Source of the DNA: Hymenobacter setariae
Lineage (GTDB): Bacteria; Bacteroidota; Bacteroidia; Cytophagales; Hymenobacteraceae
Assembly: GCF_007713685.1 (NCBI RefSeq)
Contig: NZ_VMRJ01000001.1
Coordinates: 1-64,000, forward strand
Direction of reading: 5' to 3'
Length of the DNA stretch: 64,000 bases
In this document: positions 43,670 to 54,060 of the stretch, one piece after another
How positions within the stretch are numbered: position 1 is the first letter of the stretch
Layout of the letters: the number at the start of each line of letters is the position of its first letter
Position numbers and translations under genes: made by a program
Notes under the pieces: model-generated
Seen by the model: the letters and a program-made list of their open reading frames with translations, nothing else
Told to the model about the DNA's origin: nothing
The model's database searches: none

Positions 43670-46273
43670 TTGTTCGCTCTAGCGTTGTCGTTTTTATCTC
43701 CTTCTGCAAAATCAGTTAGCCTAGCTACTATCCTCACCGCCCTTGCTGGCCAAGTAGCCGCCCAGAGTGCGGGCCCGGCCGCCGACAGCTTGACGGTAGC
43801 CATTGAGCCTACCTACACCCAAGTAACTAAAGTGCACCGCTGGCTGCTCGGCGACAGCTACCGCCAGCTGTGGGCGGCGCCCGTGCGGCTGCGCGTTTTT
43901 CACCTAGGGCGCGAAAAGGGCGGCCTCACTATTTTGCAGCGCGGGGGCGGCCTCCAAACCAAGTCGCTGCGCATGCAGGATACCAGTGGGCAGCAGTGGG
44001 TGCTGCGCACCATTCAAAAATACCCCGAGCGGGGCCTGCCGCCCACGCTGCGGGCCACCATCGCCAAAGACATTTTGCAAGACCAAGTGTCGGCCTCGCA
44101 CCCGTACTCGGCGGTAGTGGTGCCGCCGCTGGCGCAGGCCCTAGGTATTCCGCACGCGCACCCCGAAATCGTGTTTGTGCCCGACGACCCAGCCCTAGGG
44201 CAGTATCGCCAGGATTTTGCCAACCAAGTGTTCTTGCTCGAGGAGCGCGAGCCCCTAGATGCCGACAAAACTGACAACACCGAAAAAGCGCAGAACCGGC
44301 TCGAAAAAGACCACGACAACCGCGTAGACCAGGTGACCGTGCTGCGGGCTCGCCTGCTTGATATGCTGCTCGGCGACTACGACCGCCACGAAGACCAGTG
44401 GCGCTGGGAGCGCCGTGAGGCCGACGGCGGCACTCTCTACGAGCCCGTGCCGCGCGACCGCGACCACGTCTTTTACAAGCCTTCGGGGGCATTCCCGTGG
44501 GCTTTGTCGCGCCACATTTTCAAGTCTAATGTACAGGGCTACGACGACCATATTCGGTCTATTAACCGTTGGAACGACAAGGCCCGCGACTTCGACCGCT
44601 ACTTCCTGAACGCACTGAGCGAGGAAGACTGGAAAGCCCAGGTTGCCTATGTGCAGGCCCACCTGCCCGATAGCCTGTTGGCGCGCGCTGTGCGGCTGCT
44701 GCCTCCCAACATCTACCAGCTTAGCGGCCCCCAGATTACGCATAACCTGGTAGCCCGGCGAGCTAACCTAGGGCGGCAGGCCATGCATTACTACCGCTTT
44801 TTGGCTAAAAAGGTCAGCATCCCGGCCTCTAATAAGCGCGAGCGTCTCGAAGTAACCCACCTGCTTGGCGGCCAGCTGCGCGTGACCAGCACCGCCCTCA
44901 AGAAAGATGGCACCCCCGGCGACCTGCTGTACCAGCGCACGTTTGACCCCGCCGATACCCGCGAGCTGCGTCTCTACGGCCTAGGGGGCGCCGACAACTT
45001 CGCGGTGACGGGGGAGGGGCGCTCACGCATCAAGGTGCGGCTAATTGGCGGTGCCGGCGACGACACCTTTGCGGTGGCGCCCGAGGTCGGGCCCAAGCGC
45101 AAAGTGTTGATATACGACCGCTCTGACGAGCCCAACACGCTGCCCGCGCCCGGCCTAGCCCGCGTGCGCACCTCGGCCGATACAACGGTGAATAGCTTCA
45201 ACCGGACCGGCTTTCACTACGACTTCTTGCAGCCGCTCCTGCTGGCGGGCTACAACCGCGACTATGGCGTTCAGCTCATCGGTAACTTCATTTACCAGCG
45301 GCAGGGCTTTCGTAAGACGCCCTATGCCAGCCGCCAGAGCCTGCTCGTGAACTACGGTTTCGGCAACAACTCGCTGCTGCTCGGCTACACCGGCGATTTT
45401 AAAAAGGTGTTGGGCCAAAACGACTTACTGGTGAATGTGCTGTCGAAAGGCCCCAACTACAACAACAACTTCTTCGGCGTCGGCAACGAAACCGAGTTTG
45501 TGAACGAGGGCGGCCGCCGTATTCGCTACTACCGCGGCATCTATAACCTGCTCACGGCTGATGTGCGCCTGAGCCGCACCTACCAACACTGGCGCCTGAG
45601 TGGCGGCATAGCGGCCCAGCACTACACCAGTGCCGCCGAAAAGAATGAAAGCCGCTACCTAGGCGTGTACGCCGCCGAGAACCCCGGCGAGGAAGTGTTC
45701 AGTCGCCAGATGTACGCTGGGTTGGTGGCCAGCGCCACCTTCGACACCCGCGACCGGGCCCTGGTAGCCCACCGCGGCGTGTACTGGAGCACCAGCATCA
45801 GCGGCCTGCGCCGGCTCGATGGCGACCACCATTCCTTCGGGCAGGCCCTCACCGAGTTTACGTTCTACGCCAGCCCCACCCGCGACTCTAGCCTGGTCAT
45901 TGCCAACCGCACTGGGGGCGGCACCACCCTAGGTAACGCTGCCTACTTCCAGCAGCTCAAGCTAGGCGGCGCCCAAAACCTGCGCGGCTATTACCTGTGG
46001 CGCTTCACAGGCAAGAGTATGGTGTACAACAACCTAGAGCTGCGATTTAAGCTACTAGACTTCACTTCGTACCTGCTGCCCGGCACCCTAGGGCTGGTGG
46101 CCTTCAACGACGTGGGGCGCGTGTGGTCGCCCGATGAGCGCTCGCAAACCTGGCACACCGGCTACGGGGGCGGGCTGTACTTTTTGCCGGCGCAGTTGGT
46201 GCTGGTGCAGGCCGTAGTTGGGTTCTCCAACGAAGGCATGTATCCATACATCTCGGCCGGCTTCCGGTTTTAG
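43670..46273 (+). CDS. BamA/TamA-type outer-membrane barrel with kinase-like periplasmic region
   Basis: 867 residues starting at TTG (43670), followed by a signal peptide ending VAAQS; no in-frame ATG lies nearby. Two regions: residues about 30-330 are a soluble domain and about 480-867 an Omp85 (surface-antigen/D15) barrel, ending FNDVGRVWSPDE...GMYPYISAGFRF with the terminal aromatic. The soluble domain contains RLLDMLLGDYDRHEDQW (Asp236, Asp238, His240) followed by YEPVPRDRDHVFY (Asp263, Asp265), and upstream WVLRTIQKYP (Arg113, Lys117). This layout resembles the catalytic loop and metal loop of atypical kinases such as HipA, CotH and Fam20. In many Bacteroidota a metallophosphoesterase domain precedes this architecture; it is absent here. 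Function unknown; a barrel linked to a phosphotransferase-like domain is plausible. Confidence 0.85.
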   Translation: MFALALSFLSPSAKSVSLATILTALAGQVAAQSAGPAADSLTVAIEPTYTQVTKVHRWLLGDSYRQLWAAPVRLRVFHLGREKGGLTILQRGGGLQTKSLRMQDTSGQQWVLRTIQKYPERGLPPTLRATIAKDILQDQVSASHPYSAVVVPPLAQALGIPHAHPEIVFVPDDPALGQYRQDFANQVFLLEEREPLDADKTDNTEKAQNRLEKDHDNRVDQVTVLRARLLDMLLGDYDRHEDQWRWERREADGGTLYEPVPRDRDHVFYKPSGAFPWALSRHIFKSNVQGYDDHIRSINRWNDKARDFDRYFLNALSEEDWKAQVAYVQAHLPDSLLARAVRLLPPNIYQLSGPQITHNLVARRANLGRQAMHYYRFLAKKVSIPASNKRERLEVTHLLGGQLRVTSTALKKDGTPGDLLYQRTFDPADTRELRLYGLGGADNFAVTGEGRSRIKVRLIGGAGDDTFAVAPEVGPKRKVLIYDRSDEPNTLPAPGLARVRTSADTTVNSFNRTGFHYDFLQPLLLAGYNRDYGVQLIGNFIYQRQGFRKTPYASRQSLLVNYGFGNNSLLLGYTGDFKKVLGQNDLLVNVLSKGPNYNNNFFGVGNETEFVNEGGRRIRYYRGIYNLLTADVRLSRTYQHWRLSGGIAAQHYTSAAEKNESRYLGVYAAENPGEEVFSRQMYAGLVASATFDTRDRALVAHRGVYWSTSISGLRRLDGDHHSFGQALTEFTFYASPTRDSSLVIANRTGGGTTLGNAAYFQQLKLGGAQNLRGYYLWRFTGKSMVYNNLELRFKLLDFTSYLLPGTLGLVAFNDVGRVWSPDERSQTWHTGYGGGLYFLPAQLVLVQAVVGFSNEGMYPYISAGFRF

Positions 46274-47027: not shown

Positions 47028-48347
47028 ATGACAGAACAGAAAGGACAACTGGCCCCCGCCAATGGCAAGTTGGGCATCTTGCTGCCCGGCATGGGCGCCG
47101 TTGCCACTACCCTCATTGCCGGCGTGTTGGCCGTGCGCAAGGGCGGCGGGCAGCCTATCGGCTCGCTCACCCAAATGGGCAAGCTGCACACCGCGGCGGG
47201 TAACCAAAAAATCAAAGACTTTGTACCCCTTGCCGACCTCGAAAATATCGAATTTGGCGGTTGGGACGTGTACGAAGACAACGTGTACCAAGCAGCTGTG
47301 AAAGCCGCCGTGCTCGACGAGAAGCTGCTGCAAAGTGTGCGCCCCGAGCTGGAAGCGATGGTGCCCATGAAGGCGGCCTTCGACCCGCACTACGTGAAAA
47401 ACCTCGACGGCACGCACGTTAAGACTTACACCACCAAGCTCGACCTAGCCGAGCAGGTGATTGCCGACATTCGCAACTTCAAGGCCGAGCGCGGCTGCGA
47501 GCGCCTCGTGATGGTGTGGTGCGGCTCTACGGAAATTTACCATGAGTCGGGCGAGCTGCACCGCACGCTGGCGGGCTTCGAAGAAGGCCTGCGTACCAAC
47601 GCGGCCAACATCGCGCCGAGCATGGTGTACGCCTACGCCGCCCTCAAAGAAGGCGTGCCCTTCGTGAATGGCGCCCCCAACCTGACTGTGGACGTGCCCG
47701 CCCTGCTGGAGCTGGCCGCCACTACGCAGACGCCAGTGGCTGGCAAGGACTTTAAAACCGGCCAGACGCTCATGAAAACCATCGTGGCGCCGGGCCTGAG
47801 CGCCCGTGCGCTGGGCGTGAAAGGCTGGTTCTCGACCAACATCTTGGGCAACCGCGATGGTCTGGTGCTCGACGACCCCGACAACTTCAAAACCAAGGAA
47901 GTATCGAAGCTGAGCGTACTCGACAGTGTGTTCCACCCCGAGGAAAACCCTGAGCTGTACGGTGATATGTACCACAAGGTGCGCATCAACTACTACCCGC
48001 CCGCCGGCGACAACAAGGAAAGCTGGGACAACATCGACATCTTCGGCTGGCTGGGCTACCAGATGCAGATTAAGATTAACTTCCTCTGCCGCGACTCCAT
48101 CTTGGCCGCGCCGCTGGTGCTCGACCTCGCCCTGTTTATCGACCTAGCCAAGCGTGCTGGCATGTCGGGCATTCAGGAGTGGCTCTCCTTCTACCTCAAG
48201 TCGCCGCAAACCGACGCCAACATCCGTCCCGAGCACGACATCTTCAAGCAGCTCGTGAACCTGCACAACACCCTGCGCCTGCTCATGAACGAGCCGCCCG
48301 TAGAGGCTGCCACCGAAGAAGAATACCAGGACGGCCCCGCGGTGTAA
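47028..48347 (+). CDS. ino1: myo-inositol-1-phosphate synthase
   Basis: 439-residue NAD-dependent cyclase that converts D-glucose-6-phosphate to L-myo-inositol-1-phosphate, the first committed step of inositol synthesis. The Rossmann start KLGILLPGMGAVATTLIAGVLAV, the NAD-binding VMVWCGSTEI region, VPFVNGAPNLTVDVPALLELA, GKDFKTGQT and LGNRDGLVLDDPDNFKTKEVSK, and the HKVRINYYPPAGDNKESWDNIDIFGWLG block are hallmarks of the family. The shorter length is that of the bacterial form. It leads a six-gene operon (next start 24 bases downstream) whose other members are a phosphatase and two phosphotransferases for inositol lipids. Cytoplasmic. Confidence 0.96.
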   Translation: MTEQKGQLAPANGKLGILLPGMGAVATTLIAGVLAVRKGGGQPIGSLTQMGKLHTAAGNQKIKDFVPLADLENIEFGGWDVYEDNVYQAAVKAAVLDEKLLQSVRPELEAMVPMKAAFDPHYVKNLDGTHVKTYTTKLDLAEQVIADIRNFKAERGCERLVMVWCGSTEIYHESGELHRTLAGFEEGLRTNAANIAPSMVYAYAALKEGVPFVNGAPNLTVDVPALLELAATTQTPVAGKDFKTGQTLMKTIVAPGLSARALGVKGWFSTNILGNRDGLVLDDPDNFKTKEVSKLSVLDSVFHPEENPELYGDMYHKVRINYYPPAGDNKESWDNIDIFGWLGYQMQIKINFLCRDSILAAPLVLDLALFIDLAKRAGMSGIQEWLSFYLKSPQTDANIRPEHDIFKQLVNLHNTLRLLMNEPPVEAATEEEYQDGPAV

Positions 48348-48371
48348 TGCCTGGTAAAACAATTTAGTAGA

Positions 48372-48821
48372 ATGTTTAAGCTAATCGCCACCGTGCTGGG
48401 CATCGGGTACGTGAAGGGCGGCGGCACGGTGGCGGCCGTGGCCTGCTGCCTGCTGCTGTACCTGGTCCGGCCCGGTGGCGTTTTGCTGCACCTAGGGCCC
48501 GCCGCCTTGCTCACGGGCGGCTTGCTAGCCCTGGGCACGCTGGCCGCCCAGCGCGTAGAGGGCGCGTGGGGCAAGGACAGCTACCGCGTAGTTATCGACG
48601 AGGTAGCCGGCATGTGGGTGGGCATGCTGCTGGTGCCCCTCACGGGGCCGCGGCTGCTGGTGGGGCTGGTGTTGTTTCGGTTCTTCGACATCGTCAAGCC
48701 CTTATTCATTAGAAAGATGGAGCAGCTGCCGGGCGGCGTCGGGGTGATGATGGACGACGTGCTGGCCGGCGTTTATACCAACTTGCTGCTGCACGCTGGG
48801 ATGTACCTAGGTTACCTCTGA
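48372..48821 (+). CDS. pgpA: PgpA-type phosphatase (probable phosphatidylinositol-phosphate phosphatase)
   Basis: 149-residue membrane phosphatase of the PgpA family: FKLIATVLGIGYVKGGGTVAAV, VVIDEVAGMWVGMLLVP with the acidic pair (IDE), FFDIVKPLFIRKMEQLPGGVGVMMDDVLAGVYTNLLL. In general PgpA converts phosphatidylglycerophosphate to phosphatidylglycerol; in Bacteroides thetaiotaomicron the homologue inside the inositol locus is the phosphatase that turns phosphatidylinositol-phosphate into phosphatidylinositol. Because it lies directly behind the inositol-phosphate synthase gene and before the CDP-alcohol transferase, the second role is more likely here; I infer this from context. The GtrA gene follows after 4 bases. 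Confidence 0.88.
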   Translation: MFKLIATVLGIGYVKGGGTVAAVACCLLLYLVRPGGVLLHLGPAALLTGGLLALGTLAAQRVEGAWGKDSYRVVIDEVAGMWVGMLLVPLTGPRLLVGLVLFRFFDIVKPLFIRKMEQLPGGVGVMMDDVLAGVYTNLLLHAGMYLGYL

Positions 48822-48825
48822 GGCC

Positions 48826-49209
48826 GTGCGTACTCCCCGTTTCTTGAAGGCCCAGGCGGCCTCTGCGGCCGGCACGGTCATCGATTTTTTGGTGACCATC
48901 GTGTGCGTCGAGCTATTCCATAGCTGGTACCTGCTGGGTACGGCGCTGGGCAACGCTGCCGGTGGCCTCACTAACTTTTACCTAGGGCGATACCTCGTAT
49001 TTAAAGTGCCCGAGCAGCAGGCTGCTGCTCAAGGGGTTCGGTATTTTGTAGTGTGGCTCGGTAGCATGCTACTGAACGCGGGCGGCGTTTACTTGTTTAC
49101 GCAGCTGCTGCACCTCAACTATGTGTATAGCAAGGTGGTTGTTTCGCTGCTGGTCGGTGTAGGGTTCAACTACTTTTTGCAGCTGCATTTCGTATTTCAA
49201 AAATCATGA
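48826..49209 (+). CDS. GtrA family membrane protein
   Basis: 127 residues, GTG start at 48826, four predicted transmembrane helices. GtrA-like features: FLKAQAASAAGTVIDFLVTIVCVELF, LGTALGNAAGGLTNFYLGRYLVFKV, YFVVWLGSMLLNAGGVYLF and VVVSLLVGVGFNYFLQLHFVFQ; the N(F/Y)xxxRxxVF pattern is the family signature. GtrA proteins are thought to flip undecaprenyl- or dolichyl-linked sugars across the membrane. In this operon it may move or help glycosylate inositol lipids; that is inference. The stop overlaps the start of the next gene (ATGA), so translation is coupled. Confidence 0.9.
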   Translation: MRTPRFLKAQAASAAGTVIDFLVTIVCVELFHSWYLLGTALGNAAGGLTNFYLGRYLVFKVPEQQAAAQGVRYFVVWLGSMLLNAGGVYLFTQLLHLNYVYSKVVVSLLVGVGFNYFLQLHFVFQKS

Positions 49210-51779
49210 AACGTCTGCCTCTCAGGCATTCTTACGCCGCCGTGCTCGGCTGGCTGCTGTGGCTGCTGGTGGTGCCTACCGTAGCGCTGGCCCAGGGGGC
49301 CACTACCATCACGGGGGTGGTTACCGACGCCAAAACCCGCGAGAAGCTACCCTTCGTGAGTGTGTCGGTGCCGCAGGCCGCCATCGGCACCAATACCGAC
49401 CAGGATGGGCACTACACCTTGCAGGTGCCGGCGCAGTACACGTCGGTGGTTTACACCTACCTAGGGTACCGCTCGGTCACGAAGACCTTCGAGGCCGGCA
49501 CGCCGCAGACCATCAACGTGGCGCTGGCTACCAGCTCGGCGCAGCTGGGCGAAGTCGTGATTAAGGGCTCGAAGCCGCCGCGCTACAAGAACAAGGATAA
49601 TCCGGCGGTGGCGCTCATCCGGCAAGTCATTGCCAACAAGCCCCAAAACCGACCCGAGAGCTACGACTACGTCGAGTATGAAAAGTACGAGAAGATGACC
49701 TTCTCTTTCAGTAACTTATCGGAGAAGTTTAAGAACCGCAAGGTCTTCAAAAACTATCAGTTTCTATTCAAGAAGCAAGACTCGACGGCGGCGGGCGGGG
49801 TCAATATTCTGCCCATCTACATCGAGGAAAAGCTGGCCAAGGAATACTACCGCAAAAATCCGGAAACGCGCCGTGCCGTGGAGCTAGGCAACAAGCAGGT
49901 CGAGTTTGACAAGCATTTTATTGATAACGAAGGCCTCAGCGCCTATTTCAATAGGATGTACCAGGACATCGACATCTACGCCAACAACGTGTCGCTGCTG
50001 GGCAACCAGCTCCTGAGCCCCATTGCCGACAACGCGCCCACGTTTTATCAGTTCTACATCTCCGACACGCTGCGCCAACATGTGCCGCAGCTCATTGAGC
50101 TTAGCTTTTTTCCGCGCAACAAGGGCGATATGTTGTTTGCGGGCAAGCTCTACGTGACCCTCGACGGGCACTACGCCGTGCAGCAGGCGCACTTGTCAGT
50201 AGATAAGCGCATCAACCTCAACTTTGTTAAGAGCCTCGATGCCAACCTAGAGTTTGCCGAAAACCCCGACCGGCGCTACCACCTTAGTAAGACGTTCCTA
50301 GGTATCGACTTTGGGGTGACGGAGAAGGGCTCCGGCTTTTATGGCGAGCGCACGGTGTCATTTCAAGACTACCGCGTGAACCAGCCCGCGCCCGCCAGCG
50401 TGTACGATGGCCCCGCTCGGGTGGCCCTGACCGACAGTACTAGCCGGCAAAGCGCGGCTTTCTTAGAGCAGAACCGGCCCGACAGCCTCAGCCAAGTAGA
50501 GCAATCCATCTACAAAAACGTCGATACGCTGCAGACTATCAAGTCGTTTCAGCGCACGCTTAAGATAGCCTCCTTTTTGTTGTCGGGCTACACGCCGCTT
50601 GGGCCATTCGACATTGGCCCGGCCAATACCTTCTACAGCTTTAACCCCGTGGAAGGCTTCCGCCTGCGGGTAGGGGGGCGCAGTACGCCCGAGCTAAGCA
50701 AGCGGTTTTACGTCGAAACCTACACCGCCTACGGCTTCAAGGACGAGCAGTGGAAGTACTTTCTGAGCGGCACGTACTCGCTAAATGGTCAGTCCATTTA
50801 CAAGTTTCCGCAGCACCTGCTACGGGCTAGCTTCCAGCGCGATACCCGTATTCCGGGGCAGGAGCTAGAATTTGTGCAGGAAGACAACTTCCTGCTCTCG
50901 TTCAAGCGCGGCGTCAACAACAAGTACCTCTACAACGACGTGTACCGGCTCGACTATGTGCACGAGTTCAACAACCACTTTTCGTATTCACTGGGCTTTC
51001 GCAAGCTGCAGCAGTCGCCGGCAGGTGGTCTTTACTTCCGCGACTCGAGCGCCGATACGCCCGACCTCATTGGGCAGCTCACCACGAGCGAGGTATCGCT
51101 AGGGTTGCGTTGGGCACCTAGGGAGGCCTTTTACCAAGGCAAGACCTACCGCTCGCCTATCATCAACAAGTACCCCATCTTCACGGCGCGGGCGGCGCGC
51201 GGCTTCAAAGGCCTGCTCGATGGGGAATACAGCTATACCAACCTGTCGCTCAATGGCACCAAGCGCTTTTACCTCTCGCAGCTAGGCCACGCCGACGTGG
51301 CCGTGGAGGGTGGCTATGTGGTAGGGCAGGTACCGTTTCCGCTGCTCGACATTCACCGGGCCAACCAGACATACTCGTACCAGCTGTACTCGTACAACCT
51401 GATGAACTTCCTGGAATTTGCGAGCGACCACTACGCTAGCTTGTTTATCGACCAGAATTTCAACGGCTTCTTCTTCAACAAGCTGCCTGTTATTAAGCAC
51501 CTTAAGCTGCGCGAAACGGCCTCGTTGAAGCTGCTGTACGGCGGCATTCGGGAAGAGAACAACCCGTATAGTCACCCCGAGCTCTACCAGTTTTTGCAGG
51601 ATGCCTCGGGGCGGCCGGTTTCGTTCGCCCTAGGTCGCACGCCTTACGTAGAAGCCAGTGTAGGCATCGCCAACATCTTCAAGCTCTTCCGTGTCGATAT
51701 CGTGAAGCGCTTTACCTATCTCAACAACCCCAATGTGGCCGAATGGGGCCTGCGGGGTCGTTTCAAAGTTGATTTTTAA
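49206..51779 (+). CDS. DUF5686 outer-membrane protein with carboxypeptidase-regulatory-like N-terminal domain
   Basis: 857 residues. A signal peptide (LGWLLWLLVVPTVALAQ) is followed by a carboxypeptidase-D-regulatory-like domain (about 32-120: TITGVVTDAKTREKLPFVSV...TNTDQDGHYTLQV...LGYRSV), then the DUF5686 region (from about residue 125: DNPAVALIRQVIANKPQNRPESYDYVEYEKYEK) and a C-terminal outer-membrane barrel of aromatic amphipathic strands ending LRGRFKVDF. This family is common in Bacteroidota; its function is unknown. Its tight position inside the inositol-lipid operon, overlapping the GtrA gene by 4 bases and 13 bases before the phosphatidyltransferase gene, suggests a role in placing or using the inositol lipids at the outer membrane. 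Confidence 0.9.
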   Translation: MKRLPLRHSYAAVLGWLLWLLVVPTVALAQGATTITGVVTDAKTREKLPFVSVSVPQAAIGTNTDQDGHYTLQVPAQYTSVVYTYLGYRSVTKTFEAGTPQTINVALATSSAQLGEVVIKGSKPPRYKNKDNPAVALIRQVIANKPQNRPESYDYVEYEKYEKMTFSFSNLSEKFKNRKVFKNYQFLFKKQDSTAAGGVNILPIYIEEKLAKEYYRKNPETRRAVELGNKQVEFDKHFIDNEGLSAYFNRMYQDIDIYANNVSLLGNQLLSPIADNAPTFYQFYISDTLRQHVPQLIELSFFPRNKGDMLFAGKLYVTLDGHYAVQQAHLSVDKRINLNFVKSLDANLEFAENPDRRYHLSKTFLGIDFGVTEKGSGFYGERTVSFQDYRVNQPAPASVYDGPARVALTDSTSRQSAAFLEQNRPDSLSQVEQSIYKNVDTLQTIKSFQRTLKIASFLLSGYTPLGPFDIGPANTFYSFNPVEGFRLRVGGRSTPELSKRFYVETYTAYGFKDEQWKYFLSGTYSLNGQSIYKFPQHLLRASFQRDTRIPGQELEFVQEDNFLLSFKRGVNNKYLYNDVYRLDYVHEFNNHFSYSLGFRKLQQSPAGGLYFRDSSADTPDLIGQLTTSEVSLGLRWAPREAFYQGKTYRSPIINKYPIFTARAARGFKGLLDGEYSYTNLSLNGTKRFYLSQLGHADVAVEGGYVVGQVPFPLLDIHRANQTYSYQLYSYNLMNFLEFASDHYASLFIDQNFNGFFFNKLPVIKHLKLRETASLKLLYGGIREENNPYSHPELYQFLQDASGRPVSFALGRTPYVEASVGIANIFKLFRVDIVKRFTYLNNPNVAEWGLRGRFKVDF

Positions 51780-51792
51780 TTTGCCAGACCGC

Positions 51793-53097
51793 ATGACTTT
51801 TGATACCATCCGGGCGGCGCTCCAAGCCGGAATTTACAAGGTAATCAACCCGTTTGTACGCTTGCTCATCAAGCTCGGCTTTACCCCCAATGCCGTGACC
51901 CTGACAGGCTTACTGCTGAATATTGGCGTAGCCATTATCTTTATTGTGGGCGGCGAGGAAGGCAACCGCGGCGACCTGCGCTACGTGGGCTGGGGCGGCG
52001 CGCTCATTTTGTTTGCGGGCCTCTTCGATATGCTCGACGGCCAGGTGGCCCGGCTCGGTAATATGAAGAGCACCTACGGCGCCATGTTCGATTCGGTACT
52101 GGACCGTTATAGCGAGCTATTTACCTTCCTAGGTATCTGCTACTACCTCGTGGCGCACCATTACCTCCTAGGGTCACTGTTCGCGTTTATTGCGCTTATT
52201 GGCTCGATGATGGTGAGCTACACCCGAGCCCGGGCCGAGGGGCTGGGCGTCGATTCGAAGGGTGGCCTCATGCAACGCCCCGAGCGGGTAGTGCTCATGG
52301 GTGTTAGTGCCTTGGCCTGCGGCATTAGCTCGGCTTTTATCGGGGGCGATTACAAGCTCTTCATACCGGGTGTGCCGTTCCACGTTTTCGAAACCATGTC
52401 GATTCTGACGCTGCCCATCACCGTGTTGGCAGTACTGGCCAACATCACGGCGGTGTCGCGGCTGCTGCAAGCCCGCAAGGCCTTAGAAGCCAAAGATGCT
52501 AAGGACGCGGATGAGGCTGCCGTGGCTGTAACTGCCCCAGTTGCGGTGCCTACGCGGTCGGCGGTGAAAGCATTGGTGATTGGGTTGTTCTTCTGCGGCT
52601 TGCCACTGGCCCAGGCCGCGGCGCCGGGCCTAGTATTTCCGGTACCGACGGGGGTGGCCAACCAACTCTTTTACTTGCAGCGCGACCCTAACACCAATAC
52701 CGTTATCTACCAGCTCAACGTGAATGGTGCTGGCAAACTCGATGAAGACGAGCCCGTGCACGTGTTCTGGATACGCTACGGCGAGCACGGCGAGCGCAAG
52801 GACTTGAACTTTATTCAGCGCAAGTTTGCCTACGGCCTCACCGCCAAGAAAGCCGCGGCTGATAAGTATGTCCTCAAGTTTGCTGCCTACGACAAGGTGC
52901 CGTTTTACCTCCAAAAAACGAGCGCCGACAATGCCTTCCACGTGGTCACGGTCATCAATAACAAGCAGATTGTGATAAACCGCGTGTACTTGCGCATCGA
53001 GGGTGGCACCTTCTGGGTGCCCAATGTGAAGTACATCGAAGTCAAAGGCTGGAACGCTGCCACCCGCGAGCCCGTGGTAGAGCGGCTGAGCGTGTAG
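51793..53097 (+). CDS. CDP-alcohol phosphatidyltransferase fused to DUF4833 domain (phosphatidylinositol-phosphate synthase)
   Basis: 434 residues from the ATG at 51793. Residues 1-230 form a six-helix CDP-alcohol phosphatidyltransferase with the complete motif Asp82-Gly-x2-Ala-Arg87-x8-Gly96-x3-Asp100-x3-Asp104 (DGQVARLGN then GAMFDSVLD). The enzyme joins CDP-diacylglycerol to an alcohol; with the inositol-phosphate synthase gene in the same operon, L-myo-inositol-1-phosphate is the probable substrate, yielding phosphatidylinositol phosphate. After a charged Ala/Lys/Asp linker (about 230-256) comes a hydrophobic segment at about 258-278 ending LAQAA, resembling a signal peptide, and then a DUF4833 domain (about 285-425; GVANQLFYLQRDPNTNTVIYQ, VHVFWIRYGE). 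DUF4833 is normally a separate secreted protein; here the fusion would put it in the periplasm. Confidence 0.88.
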   Translation: MTFDTIRAALQAGIYKVINPFVRLLIKLGFTPNAVTLTGLLLNIGVAIIFIVGGEEGNRGDLRYVGWGGALILFAGLFDMLDGQVARLGNMKSTYGAMFDSVLDRYSELFTFLGICYYLVAHHYLLGSLFAFIALIGSMMVSYTRARAEGLGVDSKGGLMQRPERVVLMGVSALACGISSAFIGGDYKLFIPGVPFHVFETMSILTLPITVLAVLANITAVSRLLQARKALEAKDAKDADEAAVAVTAPVAVPTRSAVKALVIGLFFCGLPLAQAAAPGLVFPVPTGVANQLFYLQRDPNTNTVIYQLNVNGAGKLDEDEPVHVFWIRYGEHGERKDLNFIQRKFAYGLTAKKAAADKYVLKFAAYDKVPFYLQKTSADNAFHVVTVINNKQIVINRVYLRIEGGTFWVPNVKYIEVKGWNAATREPVVERLSV

Positions 53098-53118
53098 CGC
53101 GGGCTTCTATAATTCTTT

Positions 53119-54060
53119 ATGTCTCAACTATCTGCCGAGCCGGCTCGCCCCGCCGGGCGCTGGCTCGTGCCGGCGCTGTCGCTGGCTTACCTGCTGTTTT
53201 CGCGGTTTCTGATTGGCTTCCGGCCCGAGCAATTGGTGCTGGTAGGGCTGTGCAATGCGTGCTACTTTCTATCGGCCACCACGCGGCGGTTTATCACCGG
53301 GTTCTCCATTTTCGTGGTCTTCTGGGTGCTGTACGACTACATGCGGGTATTCCCCAACTACCAGTACCGAGCCGTGGATGTGGCGCAGCTGTACCACACC
53401 GAGAAAAGCTTGTTCGGCATTCATACCCTAGGGCAAGTGCTGACACCCAACGAGTTTTGGCTGCAACACCATCAACCCTGGCTTGATGTGCTGTGCGGTA
53501 TCTTTTACCTATGCTGGGTACCGATTCCGCTGGCATTTGCGGGTTATTTGTTCTTTCGCAATCGCCGGCTATTTTTTGCCTTTGCGCTCACGTTTTTGCT
53601 GGTTAACATCCTAGGCTTCATTGTGTATTACCTGCACCCCGCGGCTCCGCCATGGTACGTGCAGCAGCATGGTTTGGCGTTTCAGCCACTCACGATGGGC
53701 AGCACGGCGGGCCTGTCCCGGTTCGATAGCTTTTTTGGGGTGCACATCTTCCAGGGCATCTACGCCAAGAACGCGAACATCTTTGCGGCCATGCCCTCGC
53801 TGCACTCGGCTTACCCAGCCATCGTCTTGTTTTATGCGCTTAAAAACAAGTCGGGTATCTTCAATGCAGTGTTTCTAGTGATTATGCTAGGTATCTGGTT
53901 TGCAGCAGTGTATACCAGCCATCACTACGTGCTGGATGTGCTGGCGGGCATCACTATCGCCCTGACTGGTATCGGTATCATTCGCTTTCTACTGGCAAGG
54001 AGTTCGACGTTTAATCGCCTGATTGACGCCTTTATGCAAGCCACGGCGCCGGCCGCCTAG
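53119..54060 (+). CDS. PAP2/AUR1-type inositolphosphotransferase (inositol-phosphoceramide synthase candidate)
   Basis: 313-residue integral membrane enzyme with about six helices. It belongs to the PAP2_3 group that includes yeast Aur1 and inositolphosphotransferases: the acid-phosphatase core shows C2 MPSLHSAYP (His229) and C3 SHHYVLDVLAG (His269, Asp273), and a luminal/periplasmic region FFGVHIFQGIYAKNANIFAA precedes it, as in AUR1-like enzymes. The predicted reaction moves phosphoinositol from phosphatidylinositol to dihydroceramide. It follows the phosphatidyltransferase-DUF4833 gene by 21 bases and is the last gene of the operon. The equivalent gene in the Bacteroides inositol locus has this proposed role. 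Sphingolipid production by the organism is assumed, not seen here. Confidence 0.88.
   Translation: MSQLSAEPARPAGRWLVPALSLAYLLFSRFLIGFRPEQLVLVGLCNACYFLSATTRRFITGFSIFVVFWVLYDYMRVFPNYQYRAVDVAQLYHTEKSLFGIHTLGQVLTPNEFWLQHHQPWLDVLCGIFYLCWVPIPLAFAGYLFFRNRRLFFAFALTFLLVNILGFIVYYLHPAAPPWYVQQHGLAFQPLTMGSTAGLSRFDSFFGVHIFQGIYAKNANIFAAMPSLHSAYPAIVLFYALKNKSGIFNAVFLVIMLGIWFAAVYTSHHYVLDVLAGITIALTGIGIIRFLLARSSTFNRLIDAFMQATAPAA

Follow-up and report, generated by a model that had tools for sequence, protein, structure and literature searches.

The question raised by this locus is which lipids an inositol-lipid operon makes in a genome without a recognisable serine palmitoyltransferase (SPT). The window, i.e. 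the whole 64,000-nucleotide stretch of Hymenobacter setariae DNA analyzed here, carries at positions 47028-54060 six plus-strand open reading frames (ORFs) with gaps of 24, 4, -4, 13 and 21 bases. They encode a myo-inositol-phosphate synthase (MIPS), a PgpA-family phosphatase, a GtrA-type protein, a DUF5686 protein, a phosphatidylinositol-phosphate (PIP) synthase and a PAP2 protein. A sequence-only reading had listed the genes in this order and with these spacings, which was confirmed by ORF and Pfam analysis. It had further related the locus to the inositol-lipid locus of Bacteroides thetaiotaomicron and taken it for a complete operon for phosphatidylinositol (PI) and inositol phosphoceramide (IPC). 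The relationship and the PI part held, given that the PIP synthase exceeded the cut-off of its NCBIfam model (Table 1) and has an intact catalytic motif (DX2DGX2AR...GX3DX3D). The sphingolipid part, and with it the statement that the organism makes inositol sphingolipids, was not borne out, as a genome search for SPT found none over the cut-off; this absence is one of the two findings which the sequence-only reading had itself named as refuting it.

Phosphatidylinositol is rare among bacteria, and the inositol lipids of Bacteroidetes were worked out in B. thetaiotaomicron alongside sphingolipids. The operon is of a known kind in an unusual setting: it lacks ceramide genes, and it lies in a genus predicted to make sulfonolipids which retains an Aur1-like enzyme. 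A genus keeping a phosphoinositol transferase without a recognisable SPT separates the inositol-lipid and sphingolipid pathways, and the acceptor choice of Aur1-type enzymes becomes testable in a natural system. In the explanation preferred here, to which we assign roughly an even chance (about 0.5), a BT_1522-1526-type operon was acquired horizontally without ceramide genes and makes PI, and its Aur1-like enzyme uses an acceptor other than SPT-made ceramide. For PI synthesis itself, the gene content points to a very high probability. MIPS would make inositol phosphate, which the PIP synthase would join to CDP-diacylglycerol. The PgpA-type phosphatase may strip the phosphate from PIP to yield PI, as suggested by the B. 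thetaiotaomicron knockouts in the accessible part of PMC9246714. Going by the Aur1 fold predicted for it and by its intact motifs, the PAP2 enzyme would take phosphoinositol from PI. Since no SPT is recognisable, this last enzyme would need another phosphoinositol partner and may transfer the group to something else than SPT-derived ceramide.

Ceramide supply in Hymenobacter

SPT was searched with the model NF047600, using its cut-off of 640 bits. In the source genome (6.1 Mb, 14 contigs, given as 100% complete) no protein exceeded the cut-off and two sub-threshold matches of 344.5 and 310.9 bits were obtained. The first is a glycine C-acetyltransferase (705 bits, cut-off 493), the second a cysteate fatty acyltransferase (CFAT) encoded outside the operon at C1:212602-213903. 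Compared with known structures, the CFAT candidate matched the cysteate acyltransferases 7u7h and 28eh with 640 and 595 bits, and the SPT 3a2b with 243 bits. According to the accessible part of PMC9304779, SulA of Alistipes finegoldii accepts cysteate but does not use serine; a single active-site residue sets it apart from SPT, namely Lys281, where SPT has alanine. The SulA-type lysine was present in 12/12 Hymenobacter CFAT loci examined and the alanine in 34/34 SPT loci, one Pontibacter genome being counted twice among the latter. Having a CFAT orthologue with this lysine, H. setariae is classed as a predicted sulfonolipid maker. CFAT was found with at least 748 bits in all 37 genomes tested, hence the first step of the sulfonolipid route is predicted for all of them; CFAT was the single gene of this route searched. 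A 378-AA protein with distant BioF/SPT likeness (46 bits to bioF) is encoded at another place of the source genome (C10:440324-444082).

The family sample comprised 120 genomes, each at least 90% complete. PAP2 was present in 34 of them and SPT over the cut-off in 25. Outside Hymenobacter, 25 genomes carried both and 51 neither, the SPT set and the PAP2 set being exactly the same; the 25 fall in two genus groups, which hold Pontibacter and Rufibacter. Within Hymenobacter, PAP2 was found in 9/44 and SPT in 0/44 genomes, and SPT over the cut-off was lacking in all six named Hymenobacter genomes tested, three of which are part of the family sample as well. PIP synthase exceeded its cut-off in 40 of the 120 genomes, i.e. 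in the 34 with PAP2 and in six Rufibacter-group genomes with neither PAP2 nor SPT, so PIP synthase without PAP2 seems viable. All nine Hymenobacter genomes bearing PIP synthase have kept PAP2. In seven Rufibacter-group genomes, PIP synthase gave a second match over its full length, outside the PAP2 locus. In the phylum sample of 198 genomes, a strong PAP2 match (≥ 325 bits) occurred in only four, of which the three others have SPT over the cut-off.

A GNAT protein linked to SPT was searched in 37 genomes. It reached at least 603 bits in 25/25 SPT genomes, and no orthologue was found in the nine PAP2-bearing Hymenobacter genomes, where the best matches gave 97-138 bits (source genome, 118) and were of a paralogue type that SPT genomes also carry. 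Judged by these searches, canonical ceramide synthesis is in all likelihood absent.

The Aur1-like enzyme and the origin of the cluster

The PAP2 protein obtained 337.7 bits with the NCBIfam equivalog for phosphoinositol dihydroceramide synthase (PhinosDhcerSyn, NF052609). This value is below the cut-off of 480, and the protein was therefore filed as an Aur1-like homologue and not as an equivalog. None of the 34 PAP2-bearing family genomes passed this cut-off, the 25 SPT genomes included. The His/His/Asp motifs (Table 1) are intact. For the AlphaFold2 model (mean pLDDT 80.2), the top Foldseek matches were the yeast Aur1 structures 9ivc and 9vj4 (E 4e-8 and 6e-8; TM 0.66 and 0.65), and phosphatases (PgpB and others) appeared at E 0.13 or worse. 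An alignment profile searched against the PDB matched Aur1 chains alone at E ≤ 0.01. By its predicted fold and its motifs, the protein thus appears to be an Aur1-like PAP2 phosphotransferase. Its median dN/dS in Hymenobacter was 0.15 (28/36 pairs usable), which indicates retention under purifying selection. A single clade of SPT-less PAP2s was considered; on the PAP2 tree, the label ‘SPT-less’ needs five changes, of which the starred branches force just one. The PAP2 of Flavobacteriaceae bacterium PS02338 closely resembles the Pedobacter helvus and Nubsella proteins, and either a mislabeled record or a recent transfer would account for this.

Two trees were computed, both of which flag unusual amino acid composition in part of the Hymenobacter rows. 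The first was built under LG+G4 from five proteins concatenated for 42 loci; in it, Pararcticibacter and Arcticibacter (Sphingobacteriaceae) form the sister group of the Hymenobacter loci, and a grouping of the latter with Pontibacter/Rufibacter of their own family was rejected by the approximately unbiased (AU) test (p = 1.5e-4). In the second (mixture model, 25 loci, three proteins), Hymenobacter again pairs with Pararcticibacter/Arcticibacter and the own-family join was again rejected (AU p = 3e-8). The placement of Pedobacter differs between the trees; it stands on the Hymenobacter side in the second tree alone, via a very short branch. Because the loci group with Sphingobacteriaceae and not with their own family, the Hymenobacter cluster was probably acquired horizontally from another bacterial family. 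Its GC content is close to that of the window (57.5% vs. 58.7%), hence, composition gives no sign of a recent transfer. The ceramide genes would have been either left behind at the transfer or lost after arrival.

For a wider survey, contigs were scanned with the fused PIP-synthase protein described below, which gave at least 550 encoding stretches, and the best 80 were kept; the counts out of 80 given here and below refer to this set, which is biased towards fusion by its query. By record title, it includes 39 Pedobacter, 8 Hymenobacter and 7 Chitinophaga loci, all of these being environmental genera. Among free-living Bacteroidota, operons of this kind are no rarity, and the earlier view that a free-living genome carrying one is unusual was not supported. 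SPT lies within the same locus in 60/80. Most often, the genes are arranged as SPT, GNAT, epimerase, MIPS, PgpA, GtrA, DUF5686, PIP synthase-DUF4833, fatty acid hydroxylase and PAP2; in some of the 80 loci, at least one of these genes was not found above the thresholds used. Many environmental genera thus share a conserved run of ten genes that combines the ceramide and inositol parts. GNAT and epimerase are Pfam-type assignments, the former below the gathering score, and from their position we presume them to be ceramide synthase and reductase (bCerS, CerR). These two are named as a trio with Spt in the accessible part of PMC11334938. The available text of PMC12724326 describes two Pedobacter species as producers of sphingolipids; one of them is P. 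alluvionis, whose locus carries the full run. The 20 SPT-less loci are made up of nine from Hymenobacter/Hymenobacteraceae, six others truncated at the end of a contig and five with full flanks. In four of the five latter genomes (Spirosoma arboris, a Filimonas metagenome-assembled genome (MAG), another MAG and Sediminibacterium goheungense; completeness not given) SPT was nowhere over the cut-off, and the fifth carries SPT elsewhere. In Chitinophaga filiformis ZLX-1, the whole run occurs twice, on separate scaffolds and with the same PAP2 protein, which is either a duplication or an assembly artefact.

The six genes and the DUF4833 fusion

All six Pfam assignments (Table 1) exceed the gathering scores. 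For MIPS, the top PDB chain was the inositol-3-phosphate synthase 7nwr (562 bits). The gene order is identical in eight other Hymenobacter loci, and all six frames are open and full-length in 9/9 loci including that of the window, so the arrangement is not a matter of chance. The closest locus among the matches listed is that of Hymenobacter sp. BT559 (96%). Median dN/dS within Hymenobacter ranged from 0.13 to 0.24 across the six genes; the two SPT-bearing groups had lower values for all six, with the limitation that the PIP-synthase value includes DUF4833 in Hymenobacter only. Two promoter-like sites were observed (2.7 expected) and 15 terminator-like sites (8.6 expected), the majority of the latter within genes.

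Table 1. Features of the inositol-lipid operon, with positions in the window
Feature	Position	Strand	Basis
MIPS (BT_1526-like), glucose-6-phosphate to inositol phosphate	47028..48347	+	Pfam NAD_binding_5 322 bits
PgpA-family phosphatase, predicted PIP phosphatase (BT_1525-like)	48372..48821	+	Pfam PgpA 118 bits; cluster position same as BT_1525
GtrA-type small membrane protein (BT_1524-like)	48826..49209	+	Pfam GtrA 65 bits
DUF5686 protein with CarboxypepD_reg N-terminal domain, predicted outer-membrane; BT_1527-like by description only	49206..51779	+	Pfam DUF5686 171 bits
Fused PIP synthase, membrane segment and DUF4833	51793..53097	+	start set by homology
PIP-synthase part	51811..52506	+	NCBIfam PIPSynBT1523 390.8 bits, cut-off 350
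Hydrophobic segment joining both domains	52573..52629	+	hydropathy peak, residues 261-279
DUF4833 domain, predicted all-beta	52669..53085	+	Pfam 168 bits, residues 313-451 of 454-AA ORF
PAP2_3 / Aur1-like phosphotransferase (BT_1522-like)	53119..54060	+	Pfam PAP2_3 90 bits; motifs PSLHS, SHHYVLD

The PIP synthase (CDP-alcohol transferase Pfam score 57 bits) carries at its C-terminus a DUF4833 domain, which the sequence-only reading had missed. Through the hydrophobic segment between both domains, DUF4833 is predicted to be brought to the far side of the inner membrane; by eye, the same region of unfused orthologues looks like a signal peptide. DUF4833 may be periplasmic and serve the PIP synthase as a cap or a partner domain. 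Its AlphaFold2 model has a mean pLDDT of 89.7, and no match was found in the PDB. In the literature searched, no paper mentioning DUF4833 or DUF5686 was found.

The two domains are fused in 9/9 Hymenobacter loci and separate in 10/10 sister-genus loci. A fusion peculiar to Hymenobacter was considered and rejected, since 75/80 loci of the wider survey are fused; the separation in Pontibacter and Rufibacter is therefore perhaps secondary. DUF4833 adjoins PIP synthase in 18/18 PAP2 loci from the family. Among the 198 Bacteroidota genomes it occurs in 12, at 13 places, where it adjoins other CDP-alcohol transferases in three loci (L142, L145 and L150); it is linked to GtrA in L145 and L150, and L147 has GtrA. 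At L142, it lies within an NTP-transferase/CDP-alcohol transferase/LPG_synthase_TM/HAD/PfkB run resembling the alternative inositol cluster of B. vulgatus, with a DUF5686 protein 57% identical to that of the window. No NTP-transferase or HAD match was found among the ten window proteins scanned with Pfam, so the locus studied here is not of this B. vulgatus-like kind. DUF4833 as a fixed companion of PIP synthase was rejected as well: no match was seen in two PAP2-bearing loci (L154, L155), and seven of the 13 places had no matching neighbor among the queries. L144, the sole one of these seven scanned with Pfam, showed no CDP-alcohol transferase among four neighbors. The link is frequent, not universal, and DUF4833 is a frequent, often fused companion of PIP synthase.

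Upstream of the operon, on the same strand, the window encodes an Omp85-superfamily outer-membrane protein (43670-46273). An Omp85 homologue, whole or partial, is located upstream of MIPS in several further Hymenobacter loci.

Competing explanations and known systems

Taken by itself, the use by PAP2 of an acceptor other than SPT-made ceramide is about as probable as its opposite; candidates include lipids from the sulfonolipid route and N-acyl-serine lipids. A broader version, in which Hymenobacter and a few other predicted sulfonolipid-making, SPT-less Bacteroidota re-aimed an Aur1-type enzyme, acquired horizontally in the case of Hymenobacter, to a non-sphingolipid acceptor and DUF4833 is an unrecognised inositol-lipid domain, is put forward tentatively and may well be wrong. 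The literature search found no description of an inositol lipid with such an acceptor and no paper joining Hymenobacter, polar lipids and sphingolipid; the one hit with phosphatidylinositol was a genome paper on Olivibacter. Several points weigh against an alternative acceptor. The specificity of SulA was established in Alistipes, not in Hymenobacter. Five PAP2 positions set 14 Hymenobacter sequences, two of which come from genomes outside the SPT search, apart from 74 sequences found in SPT genomes, and convergent acceptor residues were not found in the SPT-less PAP2s: of the four other sequences without SPT, none has D87, S195 or C45, and R35 and I136 occur in one each. Such scant sharing speaks against a common re-aimed pocket. 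A largely unchanged PAP2 fits ceramide from some other source at least as well, and a horizontally acquired PAP2 could also have been kept through some secondary activity towards PI.

The unchanged enzyme leads to the possibility that the organism does make IPC, with PAP2 as an ordinary IPC synthase and with ceramide either from a diverged enzyme, such as a CFAT also using serine, or from neighbors. The catalytic motifs and nearly all conserved positions of PAP2 equal those of the SPT-genome enzymes, and the predicted Aur1 fold agrees with this. However, the CFAT retains the SulA lysine and is 78-82% identical to the CFATs of the 25 sister-genus genomes which have a separate SPT, SulA of Alistipes does not take serine as far as the accessible text of PMC9304779 goes, and the SPT-linked GNAT orthologue is absent; IPC synthesis is accordingly considered rather unlikely. 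PI could also be the sole product, PAP2 hydrolyzing PI or PIP or acting as a phosphatase without any further inositol lipid. The six Rufibacter-group genomes without PAP2 suggest that PI alone is perhaps a viable end product, and the PAP2 fold includes phosphatases, but these ranked far below Aur1 in the fold search and the operon already contains a PgpA-family phosphatase, which renders this explanation improbable. Decay of a former sphingolipid operon, with the cluster as its relic, would agree with the missing ceramide genes and the patchy occurrence (9/44 Hymenobacter), yet the full-length frames, the kept order and the low dN/dS values make it very hard to sustain.

Among known systems, the closest is the B. 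thetaiotaomicron cluster, described in the accessible part of PMC9246714 as BT_1526 (MIPS), BT_1525 (PgpA-family PIP phosphatase), BT_1524 (GtrA), BT_1523 (PIP synthase) and BT_1522 (phosphoinositol dihydroceramide synthase), with homologues of the carboxypeptidase-regulatory-like BT_1527 as shared cluster neighbors. The same text surveys 162 Bacteroidetes species with an emphasis on host-associated ones and presents Flectobacillus major as the exception to the accordance of predicted capacity with lipid bands. As far as the available parts of both papers go, BT1522-1526 are required for PI and IPC, BT1524 loss lowers IPC and BT1525 was not deletable in PMC8791184, whereas BT_1525 was deleted and BT_1524 loss left the lipids unchanged in PMC9246714. 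The Hymenobacter operon matches this cluster in its five gene types and in their order, all within one run, and its DUF5686/CarboxypepD_reg gene corresponds to BT_1527 by description. In contrast to B. thetaiotaomicron, the DUF5686 gene is enclosed in the run, DUF4833 and the PIP synthase form one protein, the genome has no SPT over the cut-off and PAP2 remains below the NCBIfam equivalog cut-off. With the ten-gene run of Pedobacter, Chitinophaga and Pontibacter, the Hymenobacter loci share the inositol half and its order, but they lack SPT, GNAT, epimerase and fatty acid hydroxylase. The yeast IPC synthase Aur1 (9ivc, 9vj4) is matched in the predicted PAP2 fold and in the PSLHS and SHHY...D motifs; identity in the structural alignment is 23%, and the ceramide acceptor of yeast is here not predicted via a known SPT. 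The SPT-like candidate of Hymenobacter, encoded outside the operon and with the lysine conserved, belongs with SulA/CFAT of the sulfonolipid route as described in the accessible part of PMC9304779.

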